From a virus, in IMG/VR virus record IMGVR_UViG_3300037847_003263, positions 1-20,763 of that record: a stretch of 20,763 nt of DNA. One strand, given 5' to 3'. The translations under genes and the position numbers were made by a program. Under the pieces are notes generated by a model. That model saw only the letters and a program-made list of their open reading frames with translations. It did not search any database and was not told the DNA's origin. Positions 692 to 17,903 of the stretch are shown one piece after another (position 1 is the first letter of the stretch; each line of letters begins with the position of its first letter).

Positions 692-1123
692 ATGAAAATA
701 ATAATAAGAAACATTTGTGCTGGAGCCCTTATCTTTACGGTATGGGCTTTAATTTTATCTGCAACTTGGTCTATGGCTGTGGCAGAAGAAATCCAACCTG
801 ATATCAAATTAGTTTGTAACATCACAGAAGAAGAAACAAACGCAATTATCTTAAGACCAGAAGGGGAATACGGACCAGTAGGCAAGTTGAAATCTTTAAC
901 TAAAGATACACCAGCAACAAATGGCTTGTTAATAAAGTTTCCAGAAGAATATCTTTTAGTTGTTCAAACACCAGTTGGCTATGACTCGCATTATATAAAC
1001 AGAATGAATTTAAAGTATCATATTATAACTACAATAAATACTGTAGGGAAATCAATGAAAACCGGTGGGTTTTGTAAAATTTACAAAAAGGAAACTAATG
1101 GTAAAGATACTATATCAAAATAA
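692..1123 (+). CDS. Predicted secreted protein, 143 aa, unknown
   Basis: The N-terminus is a classic signal peptide: basic MKIIIRN, a hydrophobic core to about residue 24 and a probable signal-peptidase site after AVA (about residue 31). The mature part is about 112 residues. It begins EEIQPDIKLVC and holds two cysteines (about 42 and 128) that could form a disulfide in the periplasm. No domain is recognised. A weak ACAGG precedes the ATG. The gene lies 9 nt after the small membrane protein gene, and its 3' end overlaps the next gene in another frame. Several products in this stretch are exported, which points to action at the host envelope. Confidence 0.65.
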   Translation: MKIIIRNICAGALIFTVWALILSATWSMAVAEEIQPDIKLVCNITEEETNAIILRPEGEYGPVGKLKSLTKDTPATNGLLIKFPEEYLLVVQTPVGYDSHYINRMNLKYHIITTINTVGKSMKTGGFCKIYKKETNGKDTISK

Positions 1124-1319: not shown

Positions 1320-1483
1320 TGAAAATCACATTATTAGTATTGACCTTATTACTCGCAGGGTGTGCCAGTACTCAAACTGATAAGCAAAAAGAAGATATGA
1401 AGAAAATGTCTATTATACGGGCAGGCAGTTGTGTAGTAATTCCAACATTACCTTTTTGTATCATTCCAGGATCGACCAACTAG
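1319..1483 (+). CDS. Small lipoprotein, 54 aa
   Basis: This gene starts in a TAATG overlap with the preceding stop. The product has a short basic and hydrophobic leader ending in a clear lipobox, LLAGC, with the lipidated cysteine at about residue 15. A charged segment (TDKQKEDMKK) follows, then a hydrophobic, Cys-containing C-terminus. That predicts a tiny membrane-anchored lipoprotein of about 40 mature residues. Rz1 spanins are also tiny lipoproteins, but they are usually Pro-rich and nested in an Rz gene, which is not the case here. The stop TAG forms a CTAG palindrome shared with the stop of the opposing gene. Confidence 0.6.
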   Translation: MKITLLVLTLLLAGCASTQTDKQKEDMKKMSIIRAGSCVVIPTLPFCIIPGSTN

Positions 1484-1863
1484 TCTAAATCAAATTCTTC
1501 TATTTCGGGTTTAGATTCTTGTTCTTGTCTTTGTCTTTCTAACTCTAGCATTTCACCAATAGTCATTAAACCACGACCCCAAGTTAATAAACAAAATACA
1601 TCAAGTTCCGCAAGATGTTCAACAATCGTAAATGTACGGGCTTCTACATTTAAATACATAGCAACTGCACGGTTCTTATCATCAAACCCACGAAACAAAA
1701 TACTTTCACCTTTTAGTTGTTCGATAGCATCAACTGTAACTTCTCTACCACCACATAATACTGGTTTCTGTTCCCAAGTAGGTGGCATAGTTTGTGCTAT
1801 CACTGGTGAGCAACTGGCAAGGATACCGATTACTATTGATAGCATCGTAATAAGTCTTTTCAT
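1480..1863 (-). CDS. Predicted lipoprotein or secreted protein, 127 aa
   Basis: I set the start at the ATG at 1863-1861, because AGAGGA lies about 7 nt upstream and the product then begins with a signal peptide (MKRLITMLSIVIG). A longer reading from 1896 would add a polar leader and lacks a ribosome site. The hydrophobic core ends in LASC, a fair lipobox with Cys at about residue 18; cleavage by signal peptidase I after IAQ is the alternative. The mature domain has two further cysteines (CGG and CLL) and an acidic, Gln/Glu-rich tail (ERQRQEQESKPEIEEF). No family is recognised. It ends tail to tail with the + strand lipoprotein and follows the 361-aa SGNH gene. Confidence 0.65.
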   Translation of the reverse strand: MKRLITMLSIVIGILASCSPVIAQTMPPTWEQKPVLCGGREVTVDAIEQLKGESILFRGFDDKNRAVAMYLNVEARTFTIVEHLAELDVFCLLTWGRGLMTIGEMLELERQRQEQESKPEIEEFDLD

Positions 1864-1886
1864 TTTACATTCCTCTTCGTTGCAAC

Positions 1887-1894
1887 TATTTATC
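1887..1894 (-). promoter_or_regulatory. Candidate T4-type late promoter box (GATAAATA)
   Basis: Read on the - strand, GATAAATA differs by one base from the T4 late consensus TATAAATA. It sits in the 39-nt gap upstream of the 127-aa lipoprotein gene. Transcription starting about 6 nt downstream would give a leader of roughly 17 nt carrying the AGAGGA site, which is a sensible layout. One 8-mer in an AT-rich genome is weak evidence. Confidence 0.25.
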
Positions 1895-1902
1895 ATTAAC
1901 TT

Positions 1903-3041: not shown

Positions 3042-3074
3042 AATAATATGATGAATGCACAGGAGACATATCAA

Positions 3075-3869
3075 ATGACACACAAGGGTGAGAAACATAT
3101 CTACTCTGAGAACAACGTTATTTACTTTGGTAAGTATAACTTTGATATGTCAGTACTAGATTACAAAGAGGTAAATGCTCTTAACAAAGAAGGGTTCCCA
3201 AAAGAACAAGTTTTGGCGGCCTCTATTGTTGCTACAGAATTCAATGAGAATGAATATGTAAAAGCATCAGGCAAACACGAATTTCAAGATACAGAACACG
3301 GCTCACGTTATTTTATATCTAAACTAGCAAACAAGGCCATTGTTGAAGGTATTCTTCATATGTATCCGCATCTTATAGAAGACAAGCATATTCAGGCGGC
3401 ACGTAATATTCTAAAAGAATTAGAAGTAGATTTTATGTTCAAAATTATGTCTGATAATATGTCAGAGTTTGAAGGTAGTATTGCAAGTGTTCTTGCAAGT
3501 GATAAGATTGGTAAACAATACTATGGAGTATGTGCTTATCTTCCACAATATGCAGTTAAGAAAGCACTTGAGAAAACAATCACAGATAAGTCAGAGGCTA
3601 GTCAGCATCTTACAACTACACGACCTGATGGTAAGATATTCTTGAATATCGAGGTTCTACGTTCTAATCCAAGTCAGATGTATCCTGGATATAACGTAAG
3701 TGCGATTACTGATAAAAATCATCGTGTAAGTTTCTTTACTAGCAAAGAAGAATTCCGTAATGCACAAGGAAAGACTTTCAAAATTGTGAGTAAAATCAAA
3801 TCTCACGGTACTGTTTGGAAACAAGACCACATTAACGAAACAAGGTTGAACTACGTAAAAATTATATAA
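3075..3869 (+). CDS. Unknown protein, 264 aa (possibly nucleic-acid related)
   Basis: The frame is open from an ATG at 3048, but the promoter just upstream predicts transcription starting at about 3048. An AGGAG lies 9 nt before the ATG at 3075, so I choose 3075 (MTHKGEKHIY). There is no signal peptide or membrane helix, so the product should be cytoplasmic. The middle is rich in charged helices. The C-terminal 50 residues (FKIVSKIKSHGTVWKQ, then ETRLNYVKI) resemble the strand pattern ending in T-x-LNxVKI seen at the C-terminus of many phage replication and DNA-binding proteins. That is a resemblance only. It heads a + strand operon with its own promoter. The function is unknown. Confidence 0.7.
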   Translation: MTHKGEKHIYSENNVIYFGKYNFDMSVLDYKEVNALNKEGFPKEQVLAASIVATEFNENEYVKASGKHEFQDTEHGSRYFISKLANKAIVEGILHMYPHLIEDKHIQAARNILKELEVDFMFKIMSDNMSEFEGSIASVLASDKIGKQYYGVCAYLPQYAVKKALEKTITDKSEASQHLTTTRPDGKIFLNIEVLRSNPSQMYPGYNVSAITDKNHRVSFFTSKEEFRNAQGKTFKIVSKIKSHGTVWKQDHINETRLNYVKII

Positions 3870-4103: not shown

Positions 4104-4490
4104 ATGGCGAGTAAGGATACAGTATTAGTACATAAACATTTATTAATTAGGGCCGAAGTCAAAAAGCCTTTGGTCAATAAAAATCACGCAATCAAGTATC
4201 TTCGTAAAATGATTAAAGCAATCAATATGAAAGCGATGTATGGACCTACTGCATCATATTGTAAGATGCCAGGCAACAAAGGTCTAACTGCATTTGCTAT
4301 AATCGAAACATCACACATTGCAATGCATATATGGGACGAACCAAGTCCTGCTTTATTACAATTAGATGTATATACTTGTTCAGAAATGAAACCAGAACAA
4401 GTGTTACCTTTCTTAGAAGTAATGGAACCTACAAAAATAGAATGGAAGTTCCTAGATAGAGAAAATAACTTCACAGAACTTTCTGTATAA
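4104..4490 (+). CDS. speD: S-adenosylmethionine decarboxylase-like protein (SpeD/SpeH type)
   Basis: At 128 aa this has the size of the short bacterial/archaeal AdoMet decarboxylase proenzyme, which cleaves itself to a pyruvoyl enzyme. That enzyme makes decarboxylated AdoMet, the aminopropyl donor for spermidine. The core IIETSHIAMHIWDE (66-79) followed by LDVYTC (87-92) matches the family pattern ISESHLTIHTWPE...DVFTC. The candidate pyruvoyl-forming Ser is Ser70, and the other catalytic residues are His75 and Cys92. Two things are odd. The residue before the cleavage-site Ser is Thr instead of the usual Glu, and there are two extra residues between His75 and Cys92. No clear ribosome site precedes the ATG. 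speD homologues are known auxiliary genes in marine phages. It sits between tiny unknown genes and a cupin gene. Confidence 0.75.
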   Translation: MASKDTVLVHKHLLIRAEVKKPLVNKNHAIKYLRKMIKAINMKAMYGPTASYCKMPGNKGLTAFAIIETSHIAMHIWDEPSPALLQLDVYTCSEMKPEQVLPFLEVMEPTKIEWKFLDRENNFTELSV

Positions 4491-4540: not shown

Positions 4541-4891
4541 ATGAACGATAATGAAAAGACTCATCCTTGGGGTTTCTGGAAAACACTCACAGACAAGCAA
4601 CCAAGAATATCTCAAAAGATAATAGAAATACAACTCAACCCAGGCAAGAGTATGCCAAAACAAAAGCATACTTTTCGTAATTGTTTCTGGTATATCTTAG
4701 AGGGTGATATTATGGTGCAGTTGGAATTTGCTAAAAAGAAAGATGCAATATATCTAACTGAACACGACCATTTTCTAGTTCCAAGCGAAATCTGGTATCA
4801 AACATCTAATATTGGCAAAAAGCCAGCATTTTTGCTAGAAATTCAATATGGCGACAAATGTGACGCCAACGATTATCAGCGAAAAACTTGA
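4541..4891 (+). CDS. Cupin, mannose-6-phosphate isomerase type II-like
   Basis: This 116-aa protein matches the C-terminal cupin of type-II phosphomannose isomerase/GDP-mannose pyrophosphorylase. It has HPWGFW at 8-13, Q-x-H-x2-R-x3-W (Gln41, His43, Arg46, Trp50), LEGDIMV, VPSEIWYQTSN (80-90) and IQYGDKCDANDYQR (101-114). Such cupins interconvert sugar phosphates or act as sugar-nucleotide isomerases and epimerases. One expected metal ligand, the His in the P-x3-x-H-x3-N position, is Tyr86, and the usual Glu near the first motif is Cys48, so catalysis is uncertain. The 50-nt gap upstream has no strong ribosome site but contains AGTACT twice. Its stop codon overlaps the -35 of the next promoter. 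It may supply or modify a sugar used by the glycosyltransferases. Confidence 0.65.
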   Translation: MNDNEKTHPWGFWKTLTDKQPRISQKIIEIQLNPGKSMPKQKHTFRNCFWYILEGDIMVQLEFAKKKDAIYLTEHDHFLVPSEIWYQTSNIGKKPAFLLEIQYGDKCDANDYQRKT

Positions 4892-4918
4892 CAAATATAC
4901 GTTTTGTGTTATTATAAT
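4888..4918 (+). promoter_or_regulatory. Sigma70-like promoter for the FG-GAP gene
   Basis: TTGACA at 4888-4893 overlaps the cupin stop codon. A TATAAT at 4913-4918 gives a 19-bp spacer, and an overlapping TATTAT at 4910-4915 gives 16 bp. Either would start transcription at about 4922-4926, leaving a leader of about 20 nt with GAGAGG before the ATG at 4944. The surrounding AAACTTGACAAAT is identical to the block at 3010-3022. Confidence 0.65.
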
Positions 4919-4943
4919 CTTATCAATTAAACGAGAGGTTATG

Positions 4944-6443
4944 ATGAAAAAACTAATGATTCTATTGTCAGCACTACTTATTTCAGGTACTGCTATGGCA
5001 AATGACAAACTCCCATTTCAAGCAGGTCACGGTTTTGACGAAAAATACTTGTGGGAAAAGAATTTAAATGGTAAAAAGAAATGGCTTTTACCAAAACAAA
5101 TGCTACACGACCAGTTTCTAGCGAAACTATTGGCATACGATCCAAATCAATTTTGGTTTACAATGCACGACTTTATTGCAATGGGAGATTTCAATAGAGA
5201 CGGTGTACAAGATTATGTTGTAACAGTTTTGAATCTTGATAAAGATTTTAAGAAAAAGTTAGACAAAGACCAAGGTATGGTTGTGTGTAAAGCAGATTCA
5301 TCTGCTGGTGCTTGTTTGGCAGAGAAAGGTGTTACACAACACAACTATCAAATTATTCTAGGACAAAAAGAAACTGGTAGGGCTAAAGGTAAAGAGTCTT
5401 ATTGGGGTACAGGTTTGATACAAGACAATCTTCCTTTTATTCAAGGAGGAACTGCACAACCGCTTGTTGCAGATTTCAATGGTGACGGTTGGGACGACAT
5501 TTATTTGGCGGCGGCTGTTAATGACTTTGGAACAGGTTGTGGTGGATATCATTCTTACTTCTTGTCACAACCAGAAGGTTTCTTAAAAGAGTCAAGCAAA
5601 TCACATATCGGTGGTGGTAAAGACTTCAATAAAAAATTCAAAAGAATTTGTAACTTTTCACACAGAGCCGAGGCTGGTGACTTTGATAAAGATGGCGACA
5701 TAGATATCATACTTGCTAGTATTGATTGGAAAGGTTCTAACGGTGAAATGATTTGTCTAATCAATGATGGTAAAGGTAAAATGAAAAGTACAACTTGTGG
5801 TAATCAGTTTGCATTTATCGTAAGACACGCAGATTTTAATGGTGACGGTCACATTGATATGTTAGCAGGTGCTCATAGTTCTGAGTGTTTCAAATATCAC
5901 AGTAACTGGAAAGGTCATCATAGTAAGTCTAAGAACAGACACAACATAAGAATTCTTTGGGGTAACGGTACTAACAAATGGAATACAAAGAATTCAAAAG
6001 AAATTAAGTCTGTAGGATATCACACAAAGACTAAAGACAAAACTCCATTATGTCTTCCAGTAGGAACTTTGGTTGCTGATGTTGATAACGATGGTGATAT
6101 GGATTTAGTAGGTTCAACTGTAGGTCTTAACTATGTTGGTGGTTACTTGATTACTTACTTGAACGATGGTAAAGGTAACTTTACAATCGGTTGGCAGAAG
6201 TCAATTAAAAGTGTAACTAAGTTTAACAAAAAGAATTGGCCTAAGTCAGAAGTTAATCACGATTCAAATGGTTGGTATCTATCACTTCATCCAGTAGATG
6301 TTAACTTTGATGGTAACATAGACTTTATGACAAATGGTCACTGGTTAAATCCTGGTGATAACGATGTTTACATCAACAATGGTGATGGTACTTTCAATAA
6401 GATAGGACACACTGATTTAAGAAAGTATGCAAAAACGTTCTAA
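4944..6443 (+). CDS. Secreted FG-GAP/VCBS repeat protein with six Ca-binding motifs
   Basis: The frame is open upstream to 4848, but the promoter (4888-4918), the GAGAGG site 5 nt before the ATG at 4944 and the signal peptide MKKLMILLSALLISGTAMA all fix the start here. The mature protein is about 480 aa. It has six DxDxDG-type loops of the FG-GAP/integrin-alpha kind, at about residues 82-90, 177-185, 247-255, 297-305, 379-387 and 452-460 (for example DFNGDGWDD and DVDNDGDMD). This predicts a calcium-stabilised beta-propeller. Such domains mediate adhesion or carbohydrate and protein binding outside the cell. Export by Sec from an infected cell is unusual for phage proteins. The gene is monocistronic, between its own promoter and a strong terminator. 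Its ligand is unknown. Confidence 0.85.
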   Translation: MKKLMILLSALLISGTAMANDKLPFQAGHGFDEKYLWEKNLNGKKKWLLPKQMLHDQFLAKLLAYDPNQFWFTMHDFIAMGDFNRDGVQDYVVTVLNLDKDFKKKLDKDQGMVVCKADSSAGACLAEKGVTQHNYQIILGQKETGRAKGKESYWGTGLIQDNLPFIQGGTAQPLVADFNGDGWDDIYLAAAVNDFGTGCGGYHSYFLSQPEGFLKESSKSHIGGGKDFNKKFKRICNFSHRAEAGDFDKDGDIDIILASIDWKGSNGEMICLINDGKGKMKSTTCGNQFAFIVRHADFNGDGHIDMLAGAHSSECFKYHSNWKGHHSKSKNRHNIRILWGNGTNKWNTKNSKEIKSVGYHTKTKDKTPLCLPVGTLVADVDNDGDMDLVGSTVGLNYVGGYLITYLNDGKGNFTIGWQKSIKSVTKFNKKNWPKSEVNHDSNGWYLSLHPVDVNFDGNIDFMTNGHWLNPGDNDVYINNGDGTFNKIGHTDLRKYAKTF

Positions 6444-6470: not shown

Positions 6471-6499
6471 AAAGAGGGTCTTAATGGCCCTCTTTTTTT
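6471..6499 (+). terminator. Strong intrinsic terminator, convergent genes
   Basis: AAAGAGGGTC (6471-6480), loop TTAAT and GGCCCTCTTT (6486-6495) pair over 10 bp with one T-G wobble, and seven Ts at 6493-6499 follow. It lies 28 nt after the FG-GAP stop. The loop contains the TAA stop (6483-6481 on the - strand) of the converging SGNH gene. On the - strand the downstream T-run is poorer, so it may terminate the long operon less efficiently. Confidence 0.85.
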
Positions 6500-7161
6500 A
6501 TGGCTTCGATAATCTTATTTGCCCAATCTTTATGAGCATCTTTTCCAAAATGTTCTGCTGGAGTTCTTTTATAACCCTTCTCTACTAGATATTCCCAATA
6601 AGGTACTTTGATAATAAAACAATCATTGTAAACTGTTCTATCACTTTCTGTCATATAATATTTTATATTCTTACTATCTAATAATTCTTTTGCACCTAGT
6701 ATATTTTTTGTCTTTAATACATTTGTATAATCAGGTTGTGCAATAAATTCTATATACTGGTCATAAAACTTTTGATTCTTTTTAGTTACATCAAACTTAG
6801 AACCATCAGGGTTTATTCCTTTAAAGCCCATACCTACTGAAAAGTTTTGATATCCATCAGGTGTTTTTAATTCTATTCTATCAGGTCCTGTCCATTGTAT
6901 TAGAAATCTATCACCTTCTTCCCATTTGTATTTGTTGCCAAAGAATTCAAATTCATCATTTACTAATTCATATATAACTCTGAATATTCTATCATTGCTT
7001 CCTCCTGGCCAAGATAGATTGACTGGTTCTAGATTTAAATGTTCTGCGACTAAAGTACCATAACAATGCTTTAGATTATATTCAGTAAAGTGTCCTATAC
7101 CTTCACCTTCTATCTCACAACCCATACCGTGAGAACAAGCGATTATAAAAAGTTTATTCAT
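6481..7161 (-). CDS. SGNH/GDSL-type hydrolase-like protein, 226 aa
   Basis: I place the start at the ATG at 7161, which overlaps the upstream gene's stop as TAATG; a reading from 7173 adds four residues inside that gene. Block I is IIACSHGMG (candidate Ser10). NLSWPGGSND (48-57) carries the Gly and Asn of the oxyanion hole. EHFGKDAHKDWA (203-214) offers His204 or His210 as the catalytic base. The Cys-Ser-His form of block I and the PGG-x-ND motif match the 361-aa protein at 1903-2988, so the two are paralogues. It is the last gene of the 14-kb operon, and its stop codon lies in the loop of the terminator. It probably adds or removes acyl groups on a carbohydrate, but the substrate is unknown. 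Confidence 0.7.
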   Translation of the reverse strand: MNKLFIIACSHGMGCEIEGEGIGHFTEYNLKHCYGTLVAEHLNLEPVNLSWPGGSNDRIFRVIYELVNDEFEFFGNKYKWEEGDRFLIQWTGPDRIELKTPDGYQNFSVGMGFKGINPDGSKFDVTKKNQKFYDQYIEFIAQPDYTNVLKTKNILGAKELLDSKNIKYYMTESDRTVYNDCFIIKVPYWEYLVEKGYKRTPAEHFGKDAHKDWANKIIEAIKKEGH

Positions 7162-8012
7162 TAAATACCCCAATCATATTGTTCTACGTATTTTGCATAT
7201 TGTCTATGTCCATTAATAGATAAATGCCACGCATCAAAGAATACGTCTTCGTTCGGTTCTTGTATTTCGTTTATTCTTTTAATAAACTTTATGGCTTCAT
7301 CATTGTAATGTAAACTGTTCTTAGAATAATCAATTTCCCATTGTTTGTAATGGTCTTTTAGTTTATATTTTTTAGGATGATTTGAATTAATAATTTTATC
7401 TATTTGAAAATGAAAAAAATCATTTATTAAACAATAACCAGAATTAAACTGCATAAAGTTTTCTATATCAAAATATTGTAACATTTGTTTTTCAAAAGTT
7501 CTAGTACTAGCACCTAACATATAATCTTTTACATAATTGCTTTTTATCTCAACCAATTCAAAATGACCACATATCATTTTATACTTTACACCAATATCAT
7601 CTAGTAAACGTTTTGCGTAATTAGAATGTATACTCAATTTTAATCTATCTGAATATACATTACCTAACTTCATCATTGCATTAAGTACTTTCGTGTTGTT
7701 ATCAAAGTCTTGCAATACTGTCCACATATCTACTGTATTTCTATCTGTGTCTATATATTTTGTTTCTATATTATCGATAGTCATAAAACGTGATACATTA
7801 CTTAATGTAAATAAAACAAAATCTTTTTCTGGATCTATCTGACTAGTCATATCTCTTAAACAAAAAACTGCATCATCTGTAGAACGTCCTGCCATCGCAT
7901 AGTTCTTAACTTTATACCCTTTATTTTCTAAGAGTATATCTGCCCAACTTTTTTTATTTCCGTGCGGAAAATAATTATCTACAAAACTATCTCCAAATAT
8001 CCAGGCTATCAT
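7161..8012 (-). CDS. SGNH/GDSL hydrolase-family protein, 283 aa
   Basis: This has a more canonical SGNH layout than its neighbour: IFGDSFVDN near the N-terminus (nucleophile Ser9), NYAMAGRSTDDAV (37-49) as the Gly/Asn-type blocks, and DAWHLSINGH (260-269) near the end, giving the Asp260-x-x-His263 pair. All three catalytic elements are therefore present. The intervening 200 residues are AT-rich coding with many Asn and Lys and no recognised insert. There is no signal peptide. It overlaps the upstream glycosyltransferase-like gene by ATGA and the downstream SGNH gene by TAATG. The likely role is deacylation or acyl transfer on the product of the upstream enzymes (inference). Confidence 0.75.
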   Translation of the reverse strand: MIAWIFGDSFVDNYFPHGNKKSWADILLENKGYKVKNYAMAGRSTDDAVFCLRDMTSQIDPEKDFVLFTLSNVSRFMTIDNIETKYIDTDRNTVDMWTVLQDFDNNTKVLNAMMKLGNVYSDRLKLSIHSNYAKRLLDDIGVKYKMICGHFELVEIKSNYVKDYMLGASTRTFEKQMLQYFDIENFMQFNSGYCLINDFFHFQIDKIINSNHPKKYKLKDHYKQWEIDYSKNSLHYNDEAIKFIKRINEIQEPNEDVFFDAWHLSINGHRQYAKYVEQYDWGI

Positions 8013-8878
8013 TTTAAGACTCCCATATTTAAAACTTTTTCTATTTCACTTTTATCAATACAATGCACGTGACTTTGTTCATATAAATGTTTTTTACTTT
8101 GTATCTTACCTATAAAGTTCCAGTCTGGAGTTAGAGTACATATAAATTTATCTGGTCTGTTAATCATTAAGTATTGCCAGTATACTTCATCTGATGGATG
8201 AAACATATCATCTTTTTCATCATCATAAGGCAAGGTCATAAAGTTTGCATTATCTATATGCATAGAAGAATAGTAGCCTTTCTTTTCGTGTATGTCTTTT
8301 GAAAAATCTACGTAATCTTTTAATGACTTTTCTGTTATGAAATTTCTTGATACAATATATAATCCTGAATTATAACGATATAATTGTTTATTAATTTGTT
8401 CAAATGTAATGCCTTTGTACATACAATAATAATGTAAGTATGTCATATCATAAAGAAAAGGATGTTGTACACAACTTCTAACTACATCGTGTTCATAATA
8501 AGGACCTATTTGATTCACATAATGTTTTGTAGCAAGTAAATGATTTTCTTTTACAAACAAACTATCAAAGTCTGCATATGCAACATAATGTAAGTTAGGG
8601 TTTTCTTCAAAAGCCAATAGTGTTGCAAATATTTTACCTATACCAGGCATTACTTGTAATACATCTACTTTTATATTGTATTCAGAAAACGTATATCTTA
8701 AATACGGAAATCTATCATACAAATCATCTCCATATAATTTATATTCTGCATCGTTGATTGTTGCAAATGCTTTATGATTTTCTATAATGTCATCTTTAAA
8801 CTTTACCATAGGACTATAGTGAGGTCCTTTATATAAAGAACTTATAAGTTTAATTTTTTTAATATCAAATTTAGCCAT
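8009..8878 (-). CDS. Glycosyltransferase-like protein (GT-A fold, GT8-like), 289 aa
   Basis: The features of a metal-dependent GT-A transferase can be seen in order. YADFDSLF (101-108) contains the Asp-x-Asp that would bind the nucleotide-sugar metal. YNSGLYIVSR (169-178) resembles the NSG-x-x-hydrophobic motif of GT8-like enzymes. HPSDEVYWQYL (227-237) is a candidate acceptor or catalytic segment. HVHCID (270-275) could supply the late His ligand. The protein would transfer a sugar from a nucleotide donor, with donor and acceptor unknown. It overlaps the preceding radical-SAM gene by 8 nt and the next SGNH gene by ATGA, so it is co-expressed with both. It has no membrane anchor. Confidence 0.65.
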   Translation of the reverse strand: MAKFDIKKIKLISSLYKGPHYSPMVKFKDDIIENHKAFATINDAEYKLYGDDLYDRFPYLRYTFSEYNIKVDVLQVMPGIGKIFATLLAFEENPNLHYVAYADFDSLFVKENHLLATKHYVNQIGPYYEHDVVRSCVQHPFLYDMTYLHYYCMYKGITFEQINKQLYRYNSGLYIVSRNFITEKSLKDYVDFSKDIHEKKGYYSSMHIDNANFMTLPYDDEKDDMFHPSDEVYWQYLMINRPDKFICTLTPDWNFIGKIQSKKHLYEQSHVHCIDKSEIEKVLNMGVLK

Positions 8879-10034
8879 CTATATACTTCTTCATTTGAGG
8901 GAATAAATCACAATAATTTTGATTTCTAATCTTATCTATATCTTTTATATATTGTATTGTTTCTGTACTATCTATGTTTGTGTTATTCATATAATTTACA
9001 ATACCTTCTAGTGTTTTTTCTTGTAAAATACTTTTCCACTCTGGTTTGAAATTATCTTCTATGTCTTTTGTTATCTGTTCTTTTATATCTTTTGGTAATG
9101 ATGCTATACTTGTATTCTTATCATAAACAATATTTAACCACACAGGAATGTTCTTAGAATAATAATATTCTATAGATTCTAATAAATTAAAAATACTATA
9201 TACACTTACTCCATAACTAATCGTAGGTCTATAACCGTGTTCTACATAACCATCTAAATGTTTTTCATAATCATTCCAGTTTGCAGGATATCTAGAATAT
9301 TCAAATGTATCTCTAACACCATCTGCACTAAGCATAATAACTATATCTTTAAAGTTTGGCCATATAGTTTTTATTTGGTTCTTTGGAAATATGGTGCCAT
9401 TGGTTGCGTAACTTACTGTGATATTTTTTGATAACCCACGTTCTACTAGTCTTTCTAAAAACTGAAACTGTTGTTTAATCAACATTGGTTCACCACCAAA
9501 TATTTCTATAAACTCTACGTGTTCCATTAATTCATCTAACTCTTTCCAAAAGTTTTCATTATTATACCATTTGAAATTAGCAAGTTGATTTTCATCAAAC
9601 AACTTAGTAGTATTGAATAATTTATATTTGTCATCAAGCCATTTACTACTACTGAATTCATTACATATACGACACTTAAGATTACAAGTGTTACCTGGTT
9701 TTATATCTAGTATCTTTAAATTAAATACACCATTACGTATATTATCAATCTCTGCCTCAAATCTTTTATTTTCTCTTATACGTCTGCTTATGTTATTATT
9801 CATTTCTTCTGAATAACATTTTCTGCAACCCTTGTCTGGTTTATCGTCAAGCATCTTTTGTTGCATAGTTTTAATCCACTTAGAACTTCTAATGTCTTTT
9901 AGTGTATCTGTTCTTGCATTATATAAACTACCATCTTCTTTTGTGAAGTGTCCATCATAAACACAACAAGGTCTTATTTTTCCGTCAGTGTCTACTTCTA
10001 TATGAACAAAAGGTAATACACAAAACTTATTCAT
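8871..10034 (-). CDS. Twitch-type radical SAM protein, 387 aa (array member 8, CC type)
   Basis: The N-terminal twitch-like part has Cys5 (FCVLPF), a Cys-Cys pair at 23-24 (RPCC) and CRKC at 70-73, a set able to hold an auxiliary iron-sulfur cluster. The radical-SAM motif CNLKCRIC follows (Cys117, 121, 124), then FGGEPM (180-184) for AdoMet binding and LSADG (235-239). The order is N-terminal auxiliary domain first, then the TIM-barrel core, as in the phage and bacterial family called twitch domain-containing radical SAM protein. The C-terminus has the shared IRNQ...LFPQM signature. It should cleave AdoMet to the 5'-deoxyadenosyl radical; the substrate is unknown. It is the last of eight in transcription order, directly before the GT-like gene. 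Confidence 0.85.
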   Translation of the reverse strand: MNKFCVLPFVHIEVDTDGKIRPCCVYDGHFTKEDGSLYNARTDTLKDIRSSKWIKTMQQKMLDDKPDKGCRKCYSEEMNNNISRRIRENKRFEAEIDNIRNGVFNLKILDIKPGNTCNLKCRICNEFSSSKWLDDKYKLFNTTKLFDENQLANFKWYNNENFWKELDELMEHVEFIEIFGGEPMLIKQQFQFLERLVERGLSKNITVSYATNGTIFPKNQIKTIWPNFKDIVIMLSADGVRDTFEYSRYPANWNDYEKHLDGYVEHGYRPTISYGVSVYSIFNLLESIEYYYSKNIPVWLNIVYDKNTSIASLPKDIKEQITKDIEDNFKPEWKSILQEKTLEGIVNYMNNTNIDSTETIQYIKDIDKIRNQNYCDLFPQMKKYIDG

Positions 10035-11220
10035 TAAAATACGCCTCGAATTCTGGTAGATAGTCTACTATATTTTGTTTTCTAATTTCATCTAAATTCT
10101 TAGTATATTCAATCGCTTTTTCCCATTTGCCTTTTCTATCAGGACCACTAAACATTTTTTCGAACTCTGTTAACTTCCAACTATCAAATATATTAGAAAA
10201 CTTTTTATGTATTCTTTCTCTCATTTCTTTTGGTAGAACTGCTGGTGAAAGAATATCAGGATCATATACATAGTTGTGATGTACCCATACTCCGTGTTCT
10301 CTGTGAAAGAAATTATAGAAATCTCCCAACGTAGAATAATTCATCCACGATACAGTTTGTGTTACATCTAATTCAAAGTTTTCTTCTTTAAGTCTTAAGA
10401 AGTTTTTCAATACAGTATCCCAATCACTTGGATATCTTATATAGTGATTTCTTTCTCCTAAGTCATCAATACTGCAACTAACTTTAACGTGGTCAAACTT
10501 ACGCCACAATTCTATAACTTTATCATTCATATTAGTCATATTGATATTATACCATAGTTTGATATCTGTTTTGCCCATATCAACTAGTCTTTGTAAAAAT
10601 GCAAAGTGTTGTTTTATTAATGTAGGTTCACCACCATTAATATAAAACGTCTTTACTTTATCACAATGTTTTAATAAATCTTCCCAAAAACCTTCACGTT
10701 CAGGCCATCTAAAGCCTTCCATTGTATCATAACTTGTTAACTTGAATGTTGTTTTCTTTTGTAATGCATCGTAATCGTTACGCCATTTACTTGATGATGC
10801 TGGATTACAAGTACGACAAGCCACGTTACATACATTACCTAACCTTAGTTCAACAAAGTCTAGTTGTACGTCTTTCATATAGCCATCGCTATCAGTGGCG
10901 TCCCTAGCGACTTCTATGGTGTATTCAGGATAGTTTTTGATTTCTTCTATTCTTTTAGAATGCATTCCTTTTGCCTCTTCGGCATAACAACGCATACAAG
11001 CACGAGGTTTCTTTCCATCTAATACTTCTAATCTTGCTTTACGAAAAGATTTAGAATTCATTGTATCGTGTACAGTATCACGATTAAGATTATAAAATCT
11101 ATCACCATCACGTGAACTACTCAACGCATTTCTATGATCCGCAATACAACAATGAGTTACTCCACCGTGTGGGTGGGTAGCAAGATGCTGAAATAATAAT
11201 GGGCAAAAAGTATCACTCAT
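10027..11220 (-). CDS. Twitch-type radical SAM protein, 397 aa (array member 7, CC type)
   Basis: Auxiliary-cluster cysteines are Cys6, Cys24-Cys25 and CMRC (75-78). The radical-SAM motif is CNVACRTC (131-138), with NGGEPT at 195-200 and a CSIDDLGE segment near 249-256 matching the common SID motif of the barrel. The sequence around the radical-SAM motif (CNPASSSKW) is close to that of member 8 (CNEFSSSKW), so these two are the most alike of the array. The gene ends with IRKQ...LPEFEAYF. It has an 8-nt overlap downstream with member 8 and a TAATG overlap with member 6 upstream. Function is as for the family, with substrate unknown. Confidence 0.85.
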   Translation of the reverse strand: MSDTFCPLLFQHLATHPHGGVTHCCIADHRNALSSSRDGDRFYNLNRDTVHDTMNSKSFRKARLEVLDGKKPRACMRCYAEEAKGMHSKRIEEIKNYPEYTIEVARDATDSDGYMKDVQLDFVELRLGNVCNVACRTCNPASSSKWRNDYDALQKKTTFKLTSYDTMEGFRWPEREGFWEDLLKHCDKVKTFYINGGEPTLIKQHFAFLQRLVDMGKTDIKLWYNINMTNMNDKVIELWRKFDHVKVSCSIDDLGERNHYIRYPSDWDTVLKNFLRLKEENFELDVTQTVSWMNYSTLGDFYNFFHREHGVWVHHNYVYDPDILSPAVLPKEMRERIHKKFSNIFDSWKLTEFEKMFSGPDRKGKWEKAIEYTKNLDEIRKQNIVDYLPEFEAYFNE

Positions 11221-12602
11221 TATACTTTTTCTCCTAGTGTTTTATCAAGAAAACTATTTAATTTTGGATATATACTTCTCCAATCTTGTTTTCTTCTTCT
11301 ATCCATTTCATCAGAAAATCTAACAAACTCTTTTAGCATTTCTATATCTGGTTCAGGTTTATTTTCAATCGCTTTTTTATATCCATTTAAAAGTTTATGT
11401 TCTTCTTTATTATGTGGAATTAAACTAATTAACTTTTCTAAATCTTCTAAAACAAAACTTCCATACTTTGTTGGATCTAAGAAAGGTGGGTTCTGAATAA
11501 TATTCCAACTTTGATGTATTTCTTTACCGTACTTCTTTTCATACTCTATAACTTTCTTTCGTAATACCCAATTAGTAGGAGTTGTTAAAGGAGTTATCGT
11601 ACTATGCACGTGAACAATTATATCTGTTTCCATAAGTGTTTCAAAGTTTTCTGTCCATTGTTTTAAATCAATTCCATACCTTGCGTACTCTTGTTCAGGT
11701 CCCCAGGCATCAATACTGCATACAATTATCCATTGTCTTATTAAATTCTTTTCAAGCATCTTTTGTATACGACCAATTTTCTGCTTAAATAAATTAGGCT
11801 TAAGCATTAAATTACTAAACATCTTAATACCCAACTTGTCATTCAAAAGTGATTCGTCTTCAAAGAATGTTAACGTTTCTTCAAATTCTTCTTTTTGATA
11901 TAACGGCTCACCACCCAAAATATGAAAATGTTTTAGATAACAAGAATGACCTCGCATCCATTCCCAAAATTGTTTCTTTCTTTTTTCATACATAGGAGAA
12001 ACAGAATATGATCCATCTAATGAATAGTGTTTACTTGCAGGACCATTTGTTCTAATGTCTGCTTCTATCTTACTGCTAAACATAGGAGAACAATATGTAC
12101 AAGCAAGATTACACGTATTTTTAAAATACACTTCCATCACTGATGGTGTAACTTCATTTCTTAATTTTCCATCTTCTGACCATTGTATCTGATGAGGATT
12201 CCAATATGTCTTTTTAGAAAATATTTGTCTTTCACTTGTACCACCTGCATCTTCAACTCTTTTACAATATCTACAACTTTCTTTTGGCCATTGATTATTG
12301 GCCATACGTGTTCTTTCTTCTACAAGTTTTGGGTGACTGTTAAAATTTCTAAACTCAGAATCTGGTTCTCTACTAAAATGAAAACCACCTGTTCTATGAC
12401 ACATATTAAACATATCCATAGAAAGGTATAAAGTCATCCAACTCCATTTCAATGCACAAGCGGCATCGTTTTGTATGGGGAATATTCTTTGACCTGGTTC
12501 TTCTGTTGGCTCAGGTGGAATATCTATGTAATCAGGAAACTTCCTATCAGGATATTCGTTTTTTACCTTTCTTCTATCTCTATAAAAATTAGAACTCGTC
12601 AT
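11220..12602 (-). CDS. Twitch-type radical SAM protein, 460 aa (array member 6, CH type)
   Basis: I use the ATG at 12602, with GGTGGAAAAGAT just upstream. A start at 12620 adds six residues and overlaps member 5 by 32 nt instead of 14, so the choice is uncertain. The auxiliary region differs from the Cys-Cys type: Cys49 (ACALKW), then Cys68-His69 (NMCHRTG) in place of Cys-Cys, then CRYC (110-113) followed by KRVEDAGG. The radical-SAM motif is CNLACTYC (164-171) and GGEP is at 230-233. The barrel has CSIDAWG and EYARYG. The C-terminus carries RRKQ...IYPKL. It belongs with members 1 and 2 by its CxYC-K/W-x-VED motif. Substrate is unknown. Confidence 0.85.
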   Translation of the reverse strand: MTSSNFYRDRRKVKNEYPDRKFPDYIDIPPEPTEEPGQRIFPIQNDAACALKWSWMTLYLSMDMFNMCHRTGGFHFSREPDSEFRNFNSHPKLVEERTRMANNQWPKESCRYCKRVEDAGGTSERQIFSKKTYWNPHQIQWSEDGKLRNEVTPSVMEVYFKNTCNLACTYCSPMFSSKIEADIRTNGPASKHYSLDGSYSVSPMYEKRKKQFWEWMRGHSCYLKHFHILGGEPLYQKEEFEETLTFFEDESLLNDKLGIKMFSNLMLKPNLFKQKIGRIQKMLEKNLIRQWIIVCSIDAWGPEQEYARYGIDLKQWTENFETLMETDIIVHVHSTITPLTTPTNWVLRKKVIEYEKKYGKEIHQSWNIIQNPPFLDPTKYGSFVLEDLEKLISLIPHNKEEHKLLNGYKKAIENKPEPDIEMLKEFVRFSDEMDRRRKQDWRSIYPKLNSFLDKTLGEKV

Positions 12603-13986
12603 ATCTTTTCCACCAGTCATATAGTTCAGAATCTTTTTTATAGATATCTTCTAATCTATATTGTTCTTGTCTTATTCGGTCAAGCCTATCTTGAAATCCT
12701 TTTCCGTTCTTAAATTCTTGTTCGTGTTTATCAGGCCATTGTTCTGCAAATGTAGGTCTATCTTTCATACCTTTTAATGTATTTACAAGTGTTGCCTGTT
12801 TGCCTGTTGCTTTAGGTTCTATATATGCAAGTAATTCATCAATCTTTCTATCCAATATATGTCTAGGCCAAGCAAAAGGACTCATAATAATATCAGGGTG
12901 AAAAGCAAACATAATCTTTGTTTCTATTCTTACATCTAATTCTAAACTCAAATCAAATAAATCTTTGATACTAAACATACCTGGTCCAGTAATAGTCAAG
13001 TCAAATAACATCTTGTCTTTACCACCTGGTGCGGCTAACCCTTTCTTAAAGTTTGCTAACCATTCTTCCCATACAATACCTTTACGAATAAACTCTACAA
13101 TATCTCCTGTGCCATCAATACTTGCACACATTAACCAATCTTTAAACTGAGGAAGATAATCAAATAACTCCATACCCTTAAATGTTGTACGAGACAAATT
13201 AGAGTTATATCTTAAGTGACAATTCTTTGCTGAACCATTAGCGACCATTTCTTTTAATGCCCACCAATGTATATCGTACATAAGTGGTTCACCACCTACC
13301 CAATATATTTCTTCTACGATACCATCTGAAATTGCTTTCTTAAATTCAGGCTCAACTACAGTACGTTGAAACTTAACCATCTTTTGTTTTACAGTTGGTT
13401 GCATAAAAGGTTGATTTTCTACTGACCACATATTGTGTTTCTTCTTTTCTGCTTCCCAAGAACTTGATAATTGTTCTCCACACATACGACATTTAAAGTT
13501 ACATAAATTTGAATATCGATAATCAAAAGAAATTGTAGGCATATCAGTACGACCATCATCGTCTGTTTTATCGAAAGCCTCTTGTATCTTGTCTCTGAAT
13601 AACACACCAGTGAACCATTTACGATAAGATGATAAACTTAAGATATCATCATTACAAACGTCACATTGTGGTATACGTTCCCCTGCCATTAGTTTCTTTC
13701 TAATGTCTCTCATATATTGAGAGTTCCAATGTTCGTCTAATGATGTAGGATTAAAATCATCTGCATCTGTTTTTGATTCTTTTACTTTACCATATCGTTC
13801 ATCATTTGATGCATCAATATATTGTTTCTGAAAGGAATGTTCTTCACGTGATGCACAACAAAGTCTGCGTTCACCTTGAGGAGAAATATAGGTGTGAGAC
13901 CATGGAGCCATACAGAAAGTTTTGTTCTTACTTTCTTCTGCACAACTTCCGTCTGACTTCCAGATAGGTATTATTCTCTTACTCAT
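12589..13986 (-). CDS. Twitch-type radical SAM protein, 465 aa (array member 5, CC type)
   Basis: The N-terminus has a 20-residue extension before FCMAPW (Cys25). LCC (Cys43-44) follows, then a long loop, CDVC (108-111), the radical-SAM motif CNFKCRMC (162-169) and VGGEPL (230-235). The barrel motif reads ASIDGTGD, followed by EFIRKG. The loop between the Cys-Cys pair and CxxC is about 25 residues longer than in members 7 and 8, so the auxiliary domain is enlarged. The C-terminus IRQEQ...DSELYDWW is a diverged form of the family's closing signature. It overlaps member 4 by ATGA. It should be a cytoplasmic iron-sulfur enzyme; substrate unknown. Confidence 0.85.
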   Translation of the reverse strand: MSKRIIPIWKSDGSCAEESKNKTFCMAPWSHTYISPQGERRLCCASREEHSFQKQYIDASNDERYGKVKESKTDADDFNPTSLDEHWNSQYMRDIRKKLMAGERIPQCDVCNDDILSLSSYRKWFTGVLFRDKIQEAFDKTDDDGRTDMPTISFDYRYSNLCNFKCRMCGEQLSSSWEAEKKKHNMWSVENQPFMQPTVKQKMVKFQRTVVEPEFKKAISDGIVEEIYWVGGEPLMYDIHWWALKEMVANGSAKNCHLRYNSNLSRTTFKGMELFDYLPQFKDWLMCASIDGTGDIVEFIRKGIVWEEWLANFKKGLAAPGGKDKMLFDLTITGPGMFSIKDLFDLSLELDVRIETKIMFAFHPDIIMSPFAWPRHILDRKIDELLAYIEPKATGKQATLVNTLKGMKDRPTFAEQWPDKHEQEFKNGKGFQDRLDRIRQEQYRLEDIYKKDSELYDWWKRYDEF

Positions 13987-15233
13987 TCTTTCTCCACAAA
14001 GTATTCTTTAAACTCAGGAAGATAATGTTTAACGTCCTGATTTCTAATCTTATCTAGTTTCTTTGTTATATCTACAAACTGGTCAAAGTACTTATCGTGT
14101 AACGATTCGTTATCTAACATCTTTCTGTAACTTTCAAACTGAGGTAAAGTATAATCTACTTTTTGATTTTGTCTCTTTAAGTAAGTTATATGTTCGTCTA
14201 GTTTTTTCTTTGCTTTCTCAACCATATGTGGAGGTGCAGTTTCTACACGATACCACTCAGGATGTAATAATGGATTAAGACCAAATTTATTAATATCAAT
14301 CAAATCATTTTCATATAGATACTTGTGTAAATCAACCACGTGTTCCATATTCATAATACCAACTGTACAACTATCATATAGTTCTACGTTAGGACATTCT
14401 TTTCTAACTAATCTTAAGTTTTCTTCAATCTTTTTCCATTGCGGTCCGTGTCTCACATATTCTGCACGTTCACCGAATGCATCTATACTTGCCATTACTT
14501 TTACTTTTTTAAGTGTGTTCCATATATCTATGGCTGTTCTCTTTTTGTACTTTAACTGACTCATATTGGTTTGATAGAATATATCAGCATCAAGATTTCC
14601 TTGTCTAATCAACTCATCAATAAAGTCCCAATGTTCAGGCATTATCAAAGGCTCACCACCTGCAAAATATATTCTTTCTAAGTTTTTCATTTGTGGTTTT
14701 GTTTCATCAAGTAGTGTAGAAAAATCATCACGTACTTTCTTAACTTTAGTATTATGTATAGCAAATGTATCGCCTAATAATTTCACACTATCATCATACC
14801 ACATTGTACTAAAGTCAGGGCCACAACTTCGACATTTCATATTACAATTATTACTAAATCTAATATCCCAATATGTTATTCTTAATTCTTTTAAAGTTCC
14901 ATCTTCATCTGTATTCTTAACTAAATCGTAATGATGCCAGTTTTCTCTATTCATATTAATACGTAAACTATCAAAGCCATAACTTTCTTGCTCATAACAT
15001 CTAGTACAAGCCTTGCTTGGTTTGCCTTCAAGCATATTCTTTCTAAGTTGTTTTGCTTTGTCTGTATTAAGTATATCTTGTAAACTAGTATTGTTCAGAT
15101 TACCAAATTGATGTTCAGGACCTACGTTACTCAAGCAACAAGGATATACTTCTCCTCCAGCCCAAGCGTGAACGTGAACCCACGGAGCCATACAGAAAAC
15201 TTTACTTTCTTTTGCTTTCTTTTGTTCTAACAT
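13983..15233 (-). CDS. Twitch-type radical SAM protein, 416 aa (array member 4, CC type)
   Basis: This is the clearest textbook member. VFCMAPWVHVHAWAGGEVYP leads into Cys32-Cys33, with Cys14 in FCMAPW and CTRC at 76-79 (KACTRCYEQE). The radical-SAM motif is CNMKCRSC (130-137) and AGGEPL is at 191-196. The barrel carries ASIDAFGE and EYVRHG. The tail is IRNQ...LPEFKEYF. The FC-x-x-PW...G...PCC opening is also that of the large bacterial radical-SAM/SPASM-twitch group, whose characterised relatives modify peptides or sugars. It has a 7-nt overlap with member 3 and an ATGA overlap with member 5. Substrate is unknown. Confidence 0.88.
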   Translation of the reverse strand: MLEQKKAKESKVFCMAPWVHVHAWAGGEVYPCCLSNVGPEHQFGNLNNTSLQDILNTDKAKQLRKNMLEGKPSKACTRCYEQESYGFDSLRINMNRENWHHYDLVKNTDEDGTLKELRITYWDIRFSNNCNMKCRSCGPDFSTMWYDDSVKLLGDTFAIHNTKVKKVRDDFSTLLDETKPQMKNLERIYFAGGEPLIMPEHWDFIDELIRQGNLDADIFYQTNMSQLKYKKRTAIDIWNTLKKVKVMASIDAFGERAEYVRHGPQWKKIEENLRLVRKECPNVELYDSCTVGIMNMEHVVDLHKYLYENDLIDINKFGLNPLLHPEWYRVETAPPHMVEKAKKKLDEHITYLKRQNQKVDYTLPQFESYRKMLDNESLHDKYFDQFVDITKKLDKIRNQDVKHYLPEFKEYFVEKE

Positions 15234-16354
15234 ACGTATCCTATCAACTCAGGAAATGCTTTCTCAAATAACCCTGGTCTTGTTTGTTTTGGATATTCAA
15301 GTCTTGTTTTAAATGTATTAACATCTCCTGGCATATCCATAAATTTAGTCAACCAGTTATCTTTACCAACAACTGGATTAATTTGTATATCTTCTATATC
15401 GTGTTTATCAAACTTTTCTTTTACTCTTGTTTTGAATTCTTCAGGTAAATCTTTTACACAAAAAGGATGCATAACAAGATTATTAAAAATCTTTACATTG
15501 TGTTTATTGCACCACTGATGAAACTCAGGCAAGTGAAATATATTCAATGCACTTACACTATGTGATATTTCTACTTGACACAAACCTTCATCTCTGAGAT
15601 GCATAAATTTTTTAAATGTTTCATATGTTTCTTCCCACTTCGCAGGATATCTTTGAAATTCAAATTGCTCTTTTGTATTATCAATAGACAACATAATTCT
15701 TACTAATTTAAAATGTTTAAAATAATCTATCAAATCTTTTGGCCACATAGTGCAATTAGTAAACCAAGTTATTTCAATATTCTTTGCAATATCTTTATCG
15801 ACAAGAAACTGTAATAATATCTTTTGTTTCTTAATCATAAATGGTTCACCACCAGCAAGTTCAACACGATTTAAATCTTCTACGTGATTATTTAAGTCTT
15901 CCCAAAATCTATCTTCATCTTGCCATTTGTTATATGGCTTATATTCTATACCAAATGATTTGTCTATACTTCCCCATTTAGAACTAGAGTGTGAACCACA
16001 TATAGCACAAGCAAGGTTACAAGTATTCCCCATTTTTAAATCTATTGCTTGTAGAGAATTCTTTTTATATCTAAAGTTCTTTGTCCATAATTTTATTTCT
16101 CTTTGTCTTTTGCTTTCGCCACCTGTTTGTTCAACTTCATAGCATTGTTTACAATCTGTCTGATAGTAGTCATCAAAGTTTTTGATCCAGTCTTGTCTAT
16201 CACTGTCTCTAAGTATTTCTGTAATTGTATGATAATGTGCGTTTGCTTTTTCTCCATTAATAGTAAATCTTTTAGAACTAATACAACAAGGAGTTGCCTC
16301 ACCTTTTGTAGTAAGTTCAAGATTATTTGTTACTAATGGACAGAAATTACTCAT
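15227..16354 (-). CDS. Twitch-type radical SAM protein, 375 aa (array member 3, CC type)
   Basis: This is the shortest of the eight. Auxiliary cysteines are Cys5 (NFCPLV), Cys23-Cys24 (TPCC) and CKQC (68-71). The core motif CNLACAIC spans 112-119, AGGEPF 167-172, and LSIDN with EFQRYP lies in the barrel. It starts in an 8-nt overlap with the end of member 2. The closing signature is TRPGLFEKAFPELIGYV, diverged from the IRxQ form. It groups with members 7 and 8 by length and by the SSSKW after the core cysteines. A + strand reading frame over its 5' end is a shadow. Substrate is unknown. Confidence 0.85.
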   Translation of the reverse strand: MSNFCPLVTNNLELTTKGEATPCCISSKRFTINGEKANAHYHTITEILRDSDRQDWIKNFDDYYQTDCKQCYEVEQTGGESKRQREIKLWTKNFRYKKNSLQAIDLKMGNTCNLACAICGSHSSSKWGSIDKSFGIEYKPYNKWQDEDRFWEDLNNHVEDLNRVELAGGEPFMIKKQKILLQFLVDKDIAKNIEITWFTNCTMWPKDLIDYFKHFKLVRIMLSIDNTKEQFEFQRYPAKWEETYETFKKFMHLRDEGLCQVEISHSVSALNIFHLPEFHQWCNKHNVKIFNNLVMHPFCVKDLPEEFKTRVKEKFDKHDIEDIQINPVVGKDNWLTKFMDMPGDVNTFKTRLEYPKQTRPGLFEKAFPELIGYVC

Positions 16355-17903
16355 TGACGATTACACCACCCAAAGCATCTTTATCAGTATCCCAACCACC
16401 GACACCTGCTTTTTCGTGTGCATCATCACCACCTTCGTATGATTCTGTAGTTGCAGGGTCGCCTGCTCTGTCACCAACTTCAAGAACAAATGTTTTTGAT
16501 TTGATTTGTTCTGGTGTAGGTGCTTTAGCATCTATAGTATCATACCAATCTGCGATAGGACCCTTGAATACTTCTCTGAAATCGTGACCTCTACGAACAT
16601 CAAACTGTGAAAAGAATGCTTTAAAATCGTTATATAGTTTTGGAGTTTCCGCAGTATTCTTGTGAGGAGTTTTTACAATATCAAGATAATCAATTAATCT
16701 TTGTACACTTGCTTTTTCGCCCTCTGTTAATTTTCTCTGCGGTCTGTCTGATATAAACCATCTTTCTAATTTGTCTTTATAAAAAGTTTTAATATGTTCT
16801 GGCAATATTGCGGCACTTTGAAAAGAAGGAAAACGTAAAATATTTAAAGTCATAGTAGGCGCACGTTGTCCGTATTCTTCTCTCAAGTCTAGCATCTCAT
16901 CCATAAAGTTTGTAATAGTAACTAAACACAATGAGTTAATAGTCATCATCATATGTAACTTTTTCACATTTGATTCTTTTAATACACGATGAATATTTGA
17001 TTTCCATAAATCATAATTCAATCCATCACGTATATATTCTGCTTGTTCTTTTGTTGCTTCCATTGATGTATAGATTTCAAAGTTAGGAACAAACCAAGAC
17101 TTTTCAATAAGTTTGTCTAATACTTTTGGTTTCTCAGGAGATAGATTTGAATTAATTGCGAAACGCATATTTCTACCTCTATCAGGATTCTTTTCAAACC
17201 AATCGAATAGTTTCCAAGTACCTCTATGCATAATAGGCTCACCGCCTGTAATTCTAATTTCTTCTAAACAATCTGCTAAGTCACTTTCCCACCACTTATG
17301 AAATGCTTGAATATACGGATTGTCTTCTTCTTGTTTAGACACAGGAGCCGCCCAAGGAGCAGTATCTACAAAGTGTCCTCTACCATCTGATTGTATATTT
17401 TGATAAGCACCATATGTGTTTATATCTTTAACCCAAGCAGTTGAGAATGCTGGATTACAATATGAACATTTAAGATTACAAGCACGGTCAAATGAAATTT
17501 CTAATGTACGTAAATTTACGTTATCGTCCCAAGGCATATTAGCACTCTTTTCGACATCTTCATCTTTAAATATTTCTGTTTTGAAAACTCTATCTGAAAT
17601 ATGGTCTTTACCCATATCTTCAACTTTCCAACAGTATTCACATTCTGCAGGACGTTTGCCTTCTTGCATATACTTACGCATAAGTTTTTTATGCTTTGTA
17701 TTATGAATAGCCGTAGGATTATCTTTTAATTCTTCTAGTGGAATCCAATGACCAGGTGGGTGGTGACAACTAGCAGTTTGTCCGTGACCTAACCAGATAG
17801 TTGCGTTATACCACTTCGCCGCACAGTAAGACGTACTGACAGGATCTATCATACGTTTTTTGTATTGGTGAAGTGTTTCGCCTTCCCAGTGTTTTCTACC
17901 CAT
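16347..17903 (-). CDS. Twitch-type radical SAM protein with C-terminal tail, 518 aa (array member 2, CH type)
   Basis: I set the start at the ATG at 17903, with GAGG about 7 nt upstream; a start at 17933 adds ten residues that overlap member 1. The auxiliary region has Cys27 (YCAAKW), Cys46-His47 (SCHHPP) and CEYC (88-91) followed by WKVEDMG. The core is CNLKCSYC (142-149), GGEP is at 220-223, and the SID motif reads SMEAT, with Glu in place of Asp. Unlike the other seven, it does not stop after the RRGHDF...FKGPIADW signature. It runs on for about 62 Gly-, Asp- and Ala-rich residues that look disordered. Sequence and CxYC-W-x-VED motif pair it with member 1, which overlaps it by 8 nt. Confidence 0.85.
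   Translation of the reverse strand: MGRKHWEGETLHQYKKRMIDPVSTSYCAAKWYNATIWLGHGQTASCHHPPGHWIPLEELKDNPTAIHNTKHKKLMRKYMQEGKRPAECEYCWKVEDMGKDHISDRVFKTEIFKDEDVEKSANMPWDDNVNLRTLEISFDRACNLKCSYCNPAFSTAWVKDINTYGAYQNIQSDGRGHFVDTAPWAAPVSKQEEDNPYIQAFHKWWESDLADCLEEIRITGGEPIMHRGTWKLFDWFEKNPDRGRNMRFAINSNLSPEKPKVLDKLIEKSWFVPNFEIYTSMEATKEQAEYIRDGLNYDLWKSNIHRVLKESNVKKLHMMMTINSLCLVTITNFMDEMLDLREEYGQRAPTMTLNILRFPSFQSAAILPEHIKTFYKDKLERWFISDRPQRKLTEGEKASVQRLIDYLDIVKTPHKNTAETPKLYNDFKAFFSQFDVRRGHDFREVFKGPIADWYDTIDAKAPTPEQIKSKTFVLEVGDRAGDPATTESYEGGDDAHEKAGVGGWDTDKDALGGVIVNE

Follow-up and report, generated by a model that had tools for sequence, protein, structure and literature searches.

We report that a marine virus of bacteria, a large myovirus of the jumbo type, carries a gene for a predicted exported FG-GAP propeller, here P0001, that looks to have been captured from bacteria, and that it sits at a place in the genome, here called the slot, where related phages hold different bacterial-type versions. 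The preliminary description, which read the gene as a phage-encoded secreted propeller with its own promoter and terminator, had foreseen neither the capture nor the slot. Going by the sequence comparisons, we regard bacterial origin and the slot as very probable. The whole explanation, a moron-like slot of marine jumbo-type myoviruses that is refilled in each lineage with an exported bacterial FG-GAP propeller, we hold to be moderately probable.

The gene, its signals and the record that carries it

The window, the whole stretch of 20,763 nucleotides that was analysed, comes from a virus record of 42,881 bases. Its features around the gene are listed by window position.

3048 to 3869, plus strand: g3048, the marker gene of the slot, with the same promoter type ahead of it at 3014 (open reading frame list, locus comparison, promoter pattern)
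4104 to 4490, plus strand: speD-like S-adenosylmethionine decarboxylase, slot neighbour (domain match; 76-84% identical in L251, L254, L115 and L114)
4541 to 4891, plus strand: cupin-domain protein, slot neighbour (domain match)
4888 to 4915, plus strand: sigma-70-type promoter, TTGACA-N16-TATTAT with an extended -10 (TG), matching the consensus at 11 of 12 positions; the -35 overlaps the cupin stop codon
4933 to 4938, plus strand: likely ribosome-binding site GAGAGG (read from the sequence; AGAGG-type sites in the leaders of most relatives)
4944 to 6443, plus strand: FG-GAP propeller protein P0001, 499 aa; ATG at 4941 also possible (open reading frame, Pfam)
4944 to 5000, plus strand: predicted Sec signal peptide, residues 1-19, inferred cleavage between AMA and ND (rule-based script)
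5187 to 6314, plus strand: propeller core, residues 82-457, containing the six D-x-[DN]-x-D-G loops (Pfam, motif count, model)
6471 to 6495, plus strand: intrinsic-terminator-like hairpin followed by a T run, in convergent position
6481 to 7173, minus strand: convergent gene with weak similarity to Pfam DUF6071, the right-hand slot neighbour in L251 and L252

That the gene is phage-encoded, as first described, is borne out by the same record, which encodes a gp25-like baseplate protein (PF04965, beyond the window) and a gp6-like protein of the baseplate wedge that shares about 33% identity with its counterparts in jumbo phages, those of Erwinia and Cronobacter among them; the contig is therefore that of a myovirus. 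The worry that homologues found only in bacteria might betray a non-viral contig does not apply: the contig belongs to a virus, and phages as well as bacteria have homologues. The baseplate-protein search led to related records of up to 342,607 bases. Also encoded beyond the window are a ClpP-like protein (read from the sequence), an ATP-dependent DNA ligase and a polysaccharide lyase. Within the window, eight tandem radical-SAM-like genes occupy 8871-19461 on the minus strand, and the three that were tested all match NF033640 (twitch-domain radical SAM; E 8e-94 or better). An Rfam search of the window gave no match, and ARAGORN found no tRNA.

The 499-residue frame is present as described, and its tandem ATGs at 4941 and 4944 are preceded by GAGAGG. 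A start at 4848, which would give the longest frame, was set aside because it lies upstream of the promoter and within the cupin gene. The N-terminus, MKKLMILLSALLISGTAMA followed by ND, fits a Sec type I signal peptide in our rule-based script, in keeping with the clean signal peptide claimed before. All 11 phage FG-GAP copies pass the same rule, as against 12 of 134 other phage ORFs (the background being phage ORFs of at least 100 aa, 20 of 142 of which pass, 8 of those 20 being FG-GAP), and five of the 11 copies have a lipobox. Export of the phage FG-GAP proteins through Sec is thus predicted with high confidence. The preliminary description had added that phage proteins exported in this way are few, a point that weighs less here, since the same record also has a lyase with a signal peptide and two export-like proteins. 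The lyase (PF14099, L003:237-1223, outside the window) lies behind the same promoter type, as do its homologues in L011, L013 and L021; a polysaccharide lyase is also found close to the slot in L253 and L254. The two export-like proteins are short and lie at 692-1123 (plus strand) and 1480-1896 (minus strand); the second has a lipobox, and the first is kept near the slot in L251, L254, L114 and L115.

The six calcium-binding-type loops are also as described: D-x-[DN]-x-D-G motifs start at residues 82, 177, 246, 297, 379 and 452, compared with a mean of 0.065 and a maximum of 2 in 2000 shuffles of the protein. Pfam assigns FG-GAP_3 (E 8e-24; 84.4 bits against a curated cut-off of 26.9) and FG-GAP (E 3e-9). 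A model built from a 32-sequence alignment (A2) has a mean pLDDT of 72.5 and a pTM of 0.78, with residues 16-73 poorly modelled, and its listed structural matches include the LGI1 EPTP domain (Z 21.0), aldos-2-ulose dehydratase (Z 19.1) and integrin alpha-M (Z 18.6). The predicted beta-propeller fold is thereby supported, while the model leaves the choice between six and seven blades unsettled. An earlier AlphaFold model from another alignment (A1; pLDDT 55.8) was set aside, and sequence hits to solved structures were weak and were discarded (designed TIM barrels, 8e-4; integrin alpha-IIb, 0.05). Domain search identified no enzyme domain or catalytic signature in P0001, PHROG profiles, virion families included, gave no match to it, and PADLOC gave no hit. 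In two slot alleles from different tree groups (L252:8714-10459, E 2e-9; L258:6310-8067, E 1e-6, the same protein as L088) domain search finds PG_binding_1 fused to FG-GAP, which fits an envelope location; its presence in two tree groups may mark a second exchanged module.

The promoter and the terminator claimed for the gene are both found. A match of at least 11 of 12 promoter positions turns up in about 0.6% of 80-nt stretches drawn at random from the phage DNA. The terminator hairpin meets the convergent gene at its stop codon, so that it may serve both genes. The promoter type precedes the FG-GAP gene in 10 of the 11 phage copies, L087 being the exception in the stretch looked at; a hairpin and T run stand at a like place in eight of the 11 (read by eye); and the phage promoter type is absent upstream of the two host copies examined. 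In the window the promoter pattern matches twice, before g3048 and before the FG-GAP gene, against 0.09 matches expected, and two or more matches arose in 1 of 100 shuffles of the window. L002 has no match; L003 has two, before the lyase and before the ligase. Across related phages (97 loci, some overlapping, repeats removed; 63 hits printed, of which some fall within genes and some belong to a variant found ahead of clpP-like genes), the promoter type recurs upstream of FG-GAP and lyase genes, of g3048 homologues and of small non-structural genes. A related variant lies 41-46 nt before a conserved ClpP-like gene at many baseplate loci, for example L023, L024 and L040. Because the promoter type precedes other non-structural genes, we consider it fairly probable that the FG-GAP gene is expressed early in infection; a T4-like late motif, TATAAATA, has no hit in the record, so a late class cannot be assigned. 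The likeness of the promoters could also reflect a shared early-promoter consensus and not descent at this place.

These signals bear on two other readings of the protein. One would make the propeller a structural adhesin with which the virion binds to the surface of its host. Adhesins such as integrins often contain FG-GAP propellers, and the locus adjoins a long block of late-looking genes; against it stand the export signal in every phage copy, the lipobox in five, and a promoter and terminator of the gene's own, with the baseplate genes on the other strand, and we rate it the least probable of all the readings considered. The other would have the propeller, together with the exported lyase, act late in infection by binding or loosening the glycans of the host's capsule or matrix, which would help progeny to escape or mask debris. 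Such a role would suit the lyase with its signal peptide on the same record and near the slot in L253 and L254, as well as the carbohydrate-active propellers among the structural matches, of which aldos-2-ulose dehydratase is one. We nevertheless think it improbable, as the promoter type of non-structural genes argues for early expression and P0001 has no identified catalytic signature.

Bacterial relatives and the slot in related phages

The best matches to P0001 in the genome scan, at 83, 78 and 77% identity over the full length, lie in three alphaproteobacterial single-cell genomes (L137, L138 and L139), among housekeeping neighbours and with no other ORF of these loci that matches the phage. 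Within the small-genome alphaproteobacterial order concerned, which we suspect to be HIMB59/AEGEAN-169, 52 of 162 genomes have some match and 23 have an orthologue at 77-85% (one partial): 83-85% in 11 genomes and 77-79% in 11 more. The host orthologues are resident, single-locus chromosomal genes in fixed housekeeping settings, which, with names read from the sequence, we take to be an M16 peptidase and a threonine-synthase-like gene for clade A and guaB/guaA-like genes for clade B. As controls, other proteins of the same record were compared with the same 162 genomes: speD reaches at best 51% (10 of 162), the cupin 33% (117 of 162) and the lyase, aligned over the greater part of its sequence, about 31% (38 of 162). 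An identity of 83-85% to chromosomal genes, with controls at no more than about 51%, points to a foreign origin in the host. One radical-SAM and one SGNH-like protein matched none of the 162 genomes, a zero that lacks a positive control and is uninformative by itself.

About 17% of bases differ between P0001 and its clade-A homologues, with a dN/dS of 0.11-0.12 (a home-made Nei-Gojobori count). This ratio points to strong purifying selection, and all six calcium loops are retained. Synonymous divergence from the nearest host genes is high (dS about 0.85), so either the capture was not recent or the true donor is unsampled.

Viral relatives were less direct to find. A single-sequence scan with P0001 gave no viral relative, tblastn in 50,697 phage records gave no match, and two further scans that needed exact short peptides turned up no P0001-type allele beyond one viral contig; FG-GAP relatives were reached only via the baseplate gene and the slot neighbours. 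A single-sequence scan with g3048 likewise found nothing, but an alignment search with it recovered 21 loci. In eight of these an FG-GAP gene adjoins g3048; in the other 13, which are mostly more distant loci, none lies within 7 kb. Among relatives found through the baseplate (80 loci), seven of 47 records of about 15 kb or more carry an FG-GAP gene, one each; most of the 40 without one are fragments.

The order of the slot is g3048, speD, cupin, FG-GAP, and six other FG-GAP alleles occupy it, 30-41% identical to P0001. Their neighbours are closer to those of the window: 76-84% for speD, 37-60% for g3048 and 54-62% for the cupin. Compared with the window, L251 shows 81-98% identity in the radical-SAM genes that lie past the slot, 77% in speD and 60% in g3048, but in FG-GAP only 38% by tblastn. 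The SGNH-like and GT-like neighbours in L251 are divergent as well (36-43%); the slot thus lies within a variable stretch, and the argument is made not by divergence alone but by the tree. Three more phage FG-GAP genes, L084, L087 and L120 (the same gene as L085), lie at other phage loci.

In the tree, P0001 joins the 77-85% host genes and branches off close to the base of clade A, though it is weakly supported there (88/64). The L251 allele joins L245 and L274 (100/99; about 74-75% identical), the L254 allele joins L219 and L249 (100/100), and the alleles of L114, L115 and L088 join L247, L282 and L283 (100/99; 51-54%), while L252 forms a long branch beside P0001 and its host clade (94/89). 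Four groups of slot alleles fall with different bacterial genes of the order, the fourth and fifth with differing firmness, and the host genes of each tree group lie at different fixed chromosomal places. A single clade of the seven slot alleles is rejected (dlnL 1116, p-AU about 1e-87). L084, L087 and L120 join genes of a gammaproteobacterial order, in which 15 of 83 genomes have matches to L084 at 65-68%. A first tree had very long branches (L117, L118, L119, L145 and L246); the second dropped these and seven near-identical host rows, and ten of its end branches are still long, so that long branches may meet near L252 and the gammaproteobacterial group. In two host-order genomes (G177 and G210; L307 and L308) related reading frames in tandem adjoin the bacterial counterpart of the L251 allele, which in G177 is interrupted by a stop.

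The locus is a mosaic. Over the 70 nt upstream, phage copies are 67-90% identical to one another and 50-66% identical to host copies; the mature proteins mostly show the reverse pattern, at 33-71% between phages (most pairs 33-43%) and 43-87% between phage and host. One expression slot that has captured exported propellers from bacteria several times over would explain this most simply, and we hold it to be the most likely account: the alleles are not sisters, each joins a different bacterial gene in the tree, and the flanking genes are phage-like. The opposite direction, in which the slot gene is old in phages and was acquired several times by bacteria, would agree with the several divergent alleles held by phages and with the weakly supported position of P0001 near the base of clade A. 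We consider it very unlikely: the bacterial copies sit in fixed housekeeping settings that several species have in common and that differ from one gene group to the next, and the two host copies looked at are without the phage promoter.

A possible role at the cell envelope

What would a phage gain from such a protein? Under repeated capture, we propose that host sigma-70 polymerase would transcribe the phage gene soon after entry and that Sec would export the product, some alleles as lipoproteins and two with a peptidoglycan-binding domain. The calcium-stabilised propeller might then replace or compete with the host's own envelope propeller, and the surface of the infected cell would be changed, mainly stopping adsorption or entry of further phage. 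Recapture would keep the protein matched to the current host, a proposal that the dS given above weakens. A role in superinfection or receptor masking is, in our view, the likeliest use, though we put it forward tentatively; the preliminary description had suggested altered surface binding or a superinfection block. Rather unlikely, to our mind, is a slot for host mimicry, in which the promoter and terminator are fixed and early, the phage repeatedly recaptures the mature portion of whatever propeller its present host has, and a self-like protein floods the cell, masking or replacing a phage receptor or a site of defence sensing; if it were true, the slot allele would be a genomic tag of the host.

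The same data can be read as envelope upkeep. The phage copy would stand in for a host envelope protein, perhaps one that binds glycans or nutrients, which fails after shutdown of the host genome, and the cell would survive a long jumbo-phage infection. The strong purifying selection with its six retained loops, the resident, single-locus host genes, and the exported lyase as a second enzyme under the same promoter type all speak for this auxiliary role. However, one upkeep function shared by non-sister alleles of 30-41% identity is not obvious, and a match in just 52 of 162 genomes implies that the order can do without the host protein; we rank the idea only slightly below the superinfection or receptor role.

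Cargo genes are usually seen as single captures, whereas here at least four well-supported, separate affiliations with bacterial envelope genes, in closely related phages, go with one slot and one promoter type. Should this be confirmed, it would offer a testable case of capture repeated under one and the same selection, the slot allele would let one guess the hosts of uncultured marine jumbo phages (that of P0001 points to the small-genome alphaproteobacterial order), and the propellers would be candidate envelope proteins for phage-phage or phage-host competition in abundant ocean bacteria.

Comparison with known systems

A literature search on FG-GAP or VCBS together with phage found no paper on this kind of gene, and a study of marine jumbo phages (PMC9123017) has none of the terms looked for in it. 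P0001 resembles the FG-GAP/VCBS repeat propellers (PF13517, PF01839; integrin-alpha-type fold) in domain, in its six calcium loops and in its modelled fold, and differs from them in being phage-encoded, about 500 aa long and of a single domain. Envelope superinfection-exclusion proteins, such as T4 Imm and Sp, T5 Llp and P22 SieA, are small membrane proteins or lipoproteins; the likeness to them would lie in the proposed mode only, by analogy, as a phage-made envelope protein present early. We know of no superinfection-exclusion protein that is an FG-GAP propeller of host origin. Marine T4-like phages carry host-derived auxiliary genes, and P0001 is like these in having a close bacterial homologue and in being under purifying selection, but it is a predicted exported envelope protein with no known metabolic role.

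In organisation there is a parallel with phage morons, which are cargo genes that bring a promoter and a terminator of their own. By its sequence signals the FG-GAP gene has both, and the slot is further alike in its foreign content and in its place outside the structural operon; morons are also named in the abstract of PMC6469090. What sets the slot apart is that it occurs in jumbo-type myoviruses and that one place repeatedly holds non-sister versions of one kind of protein.
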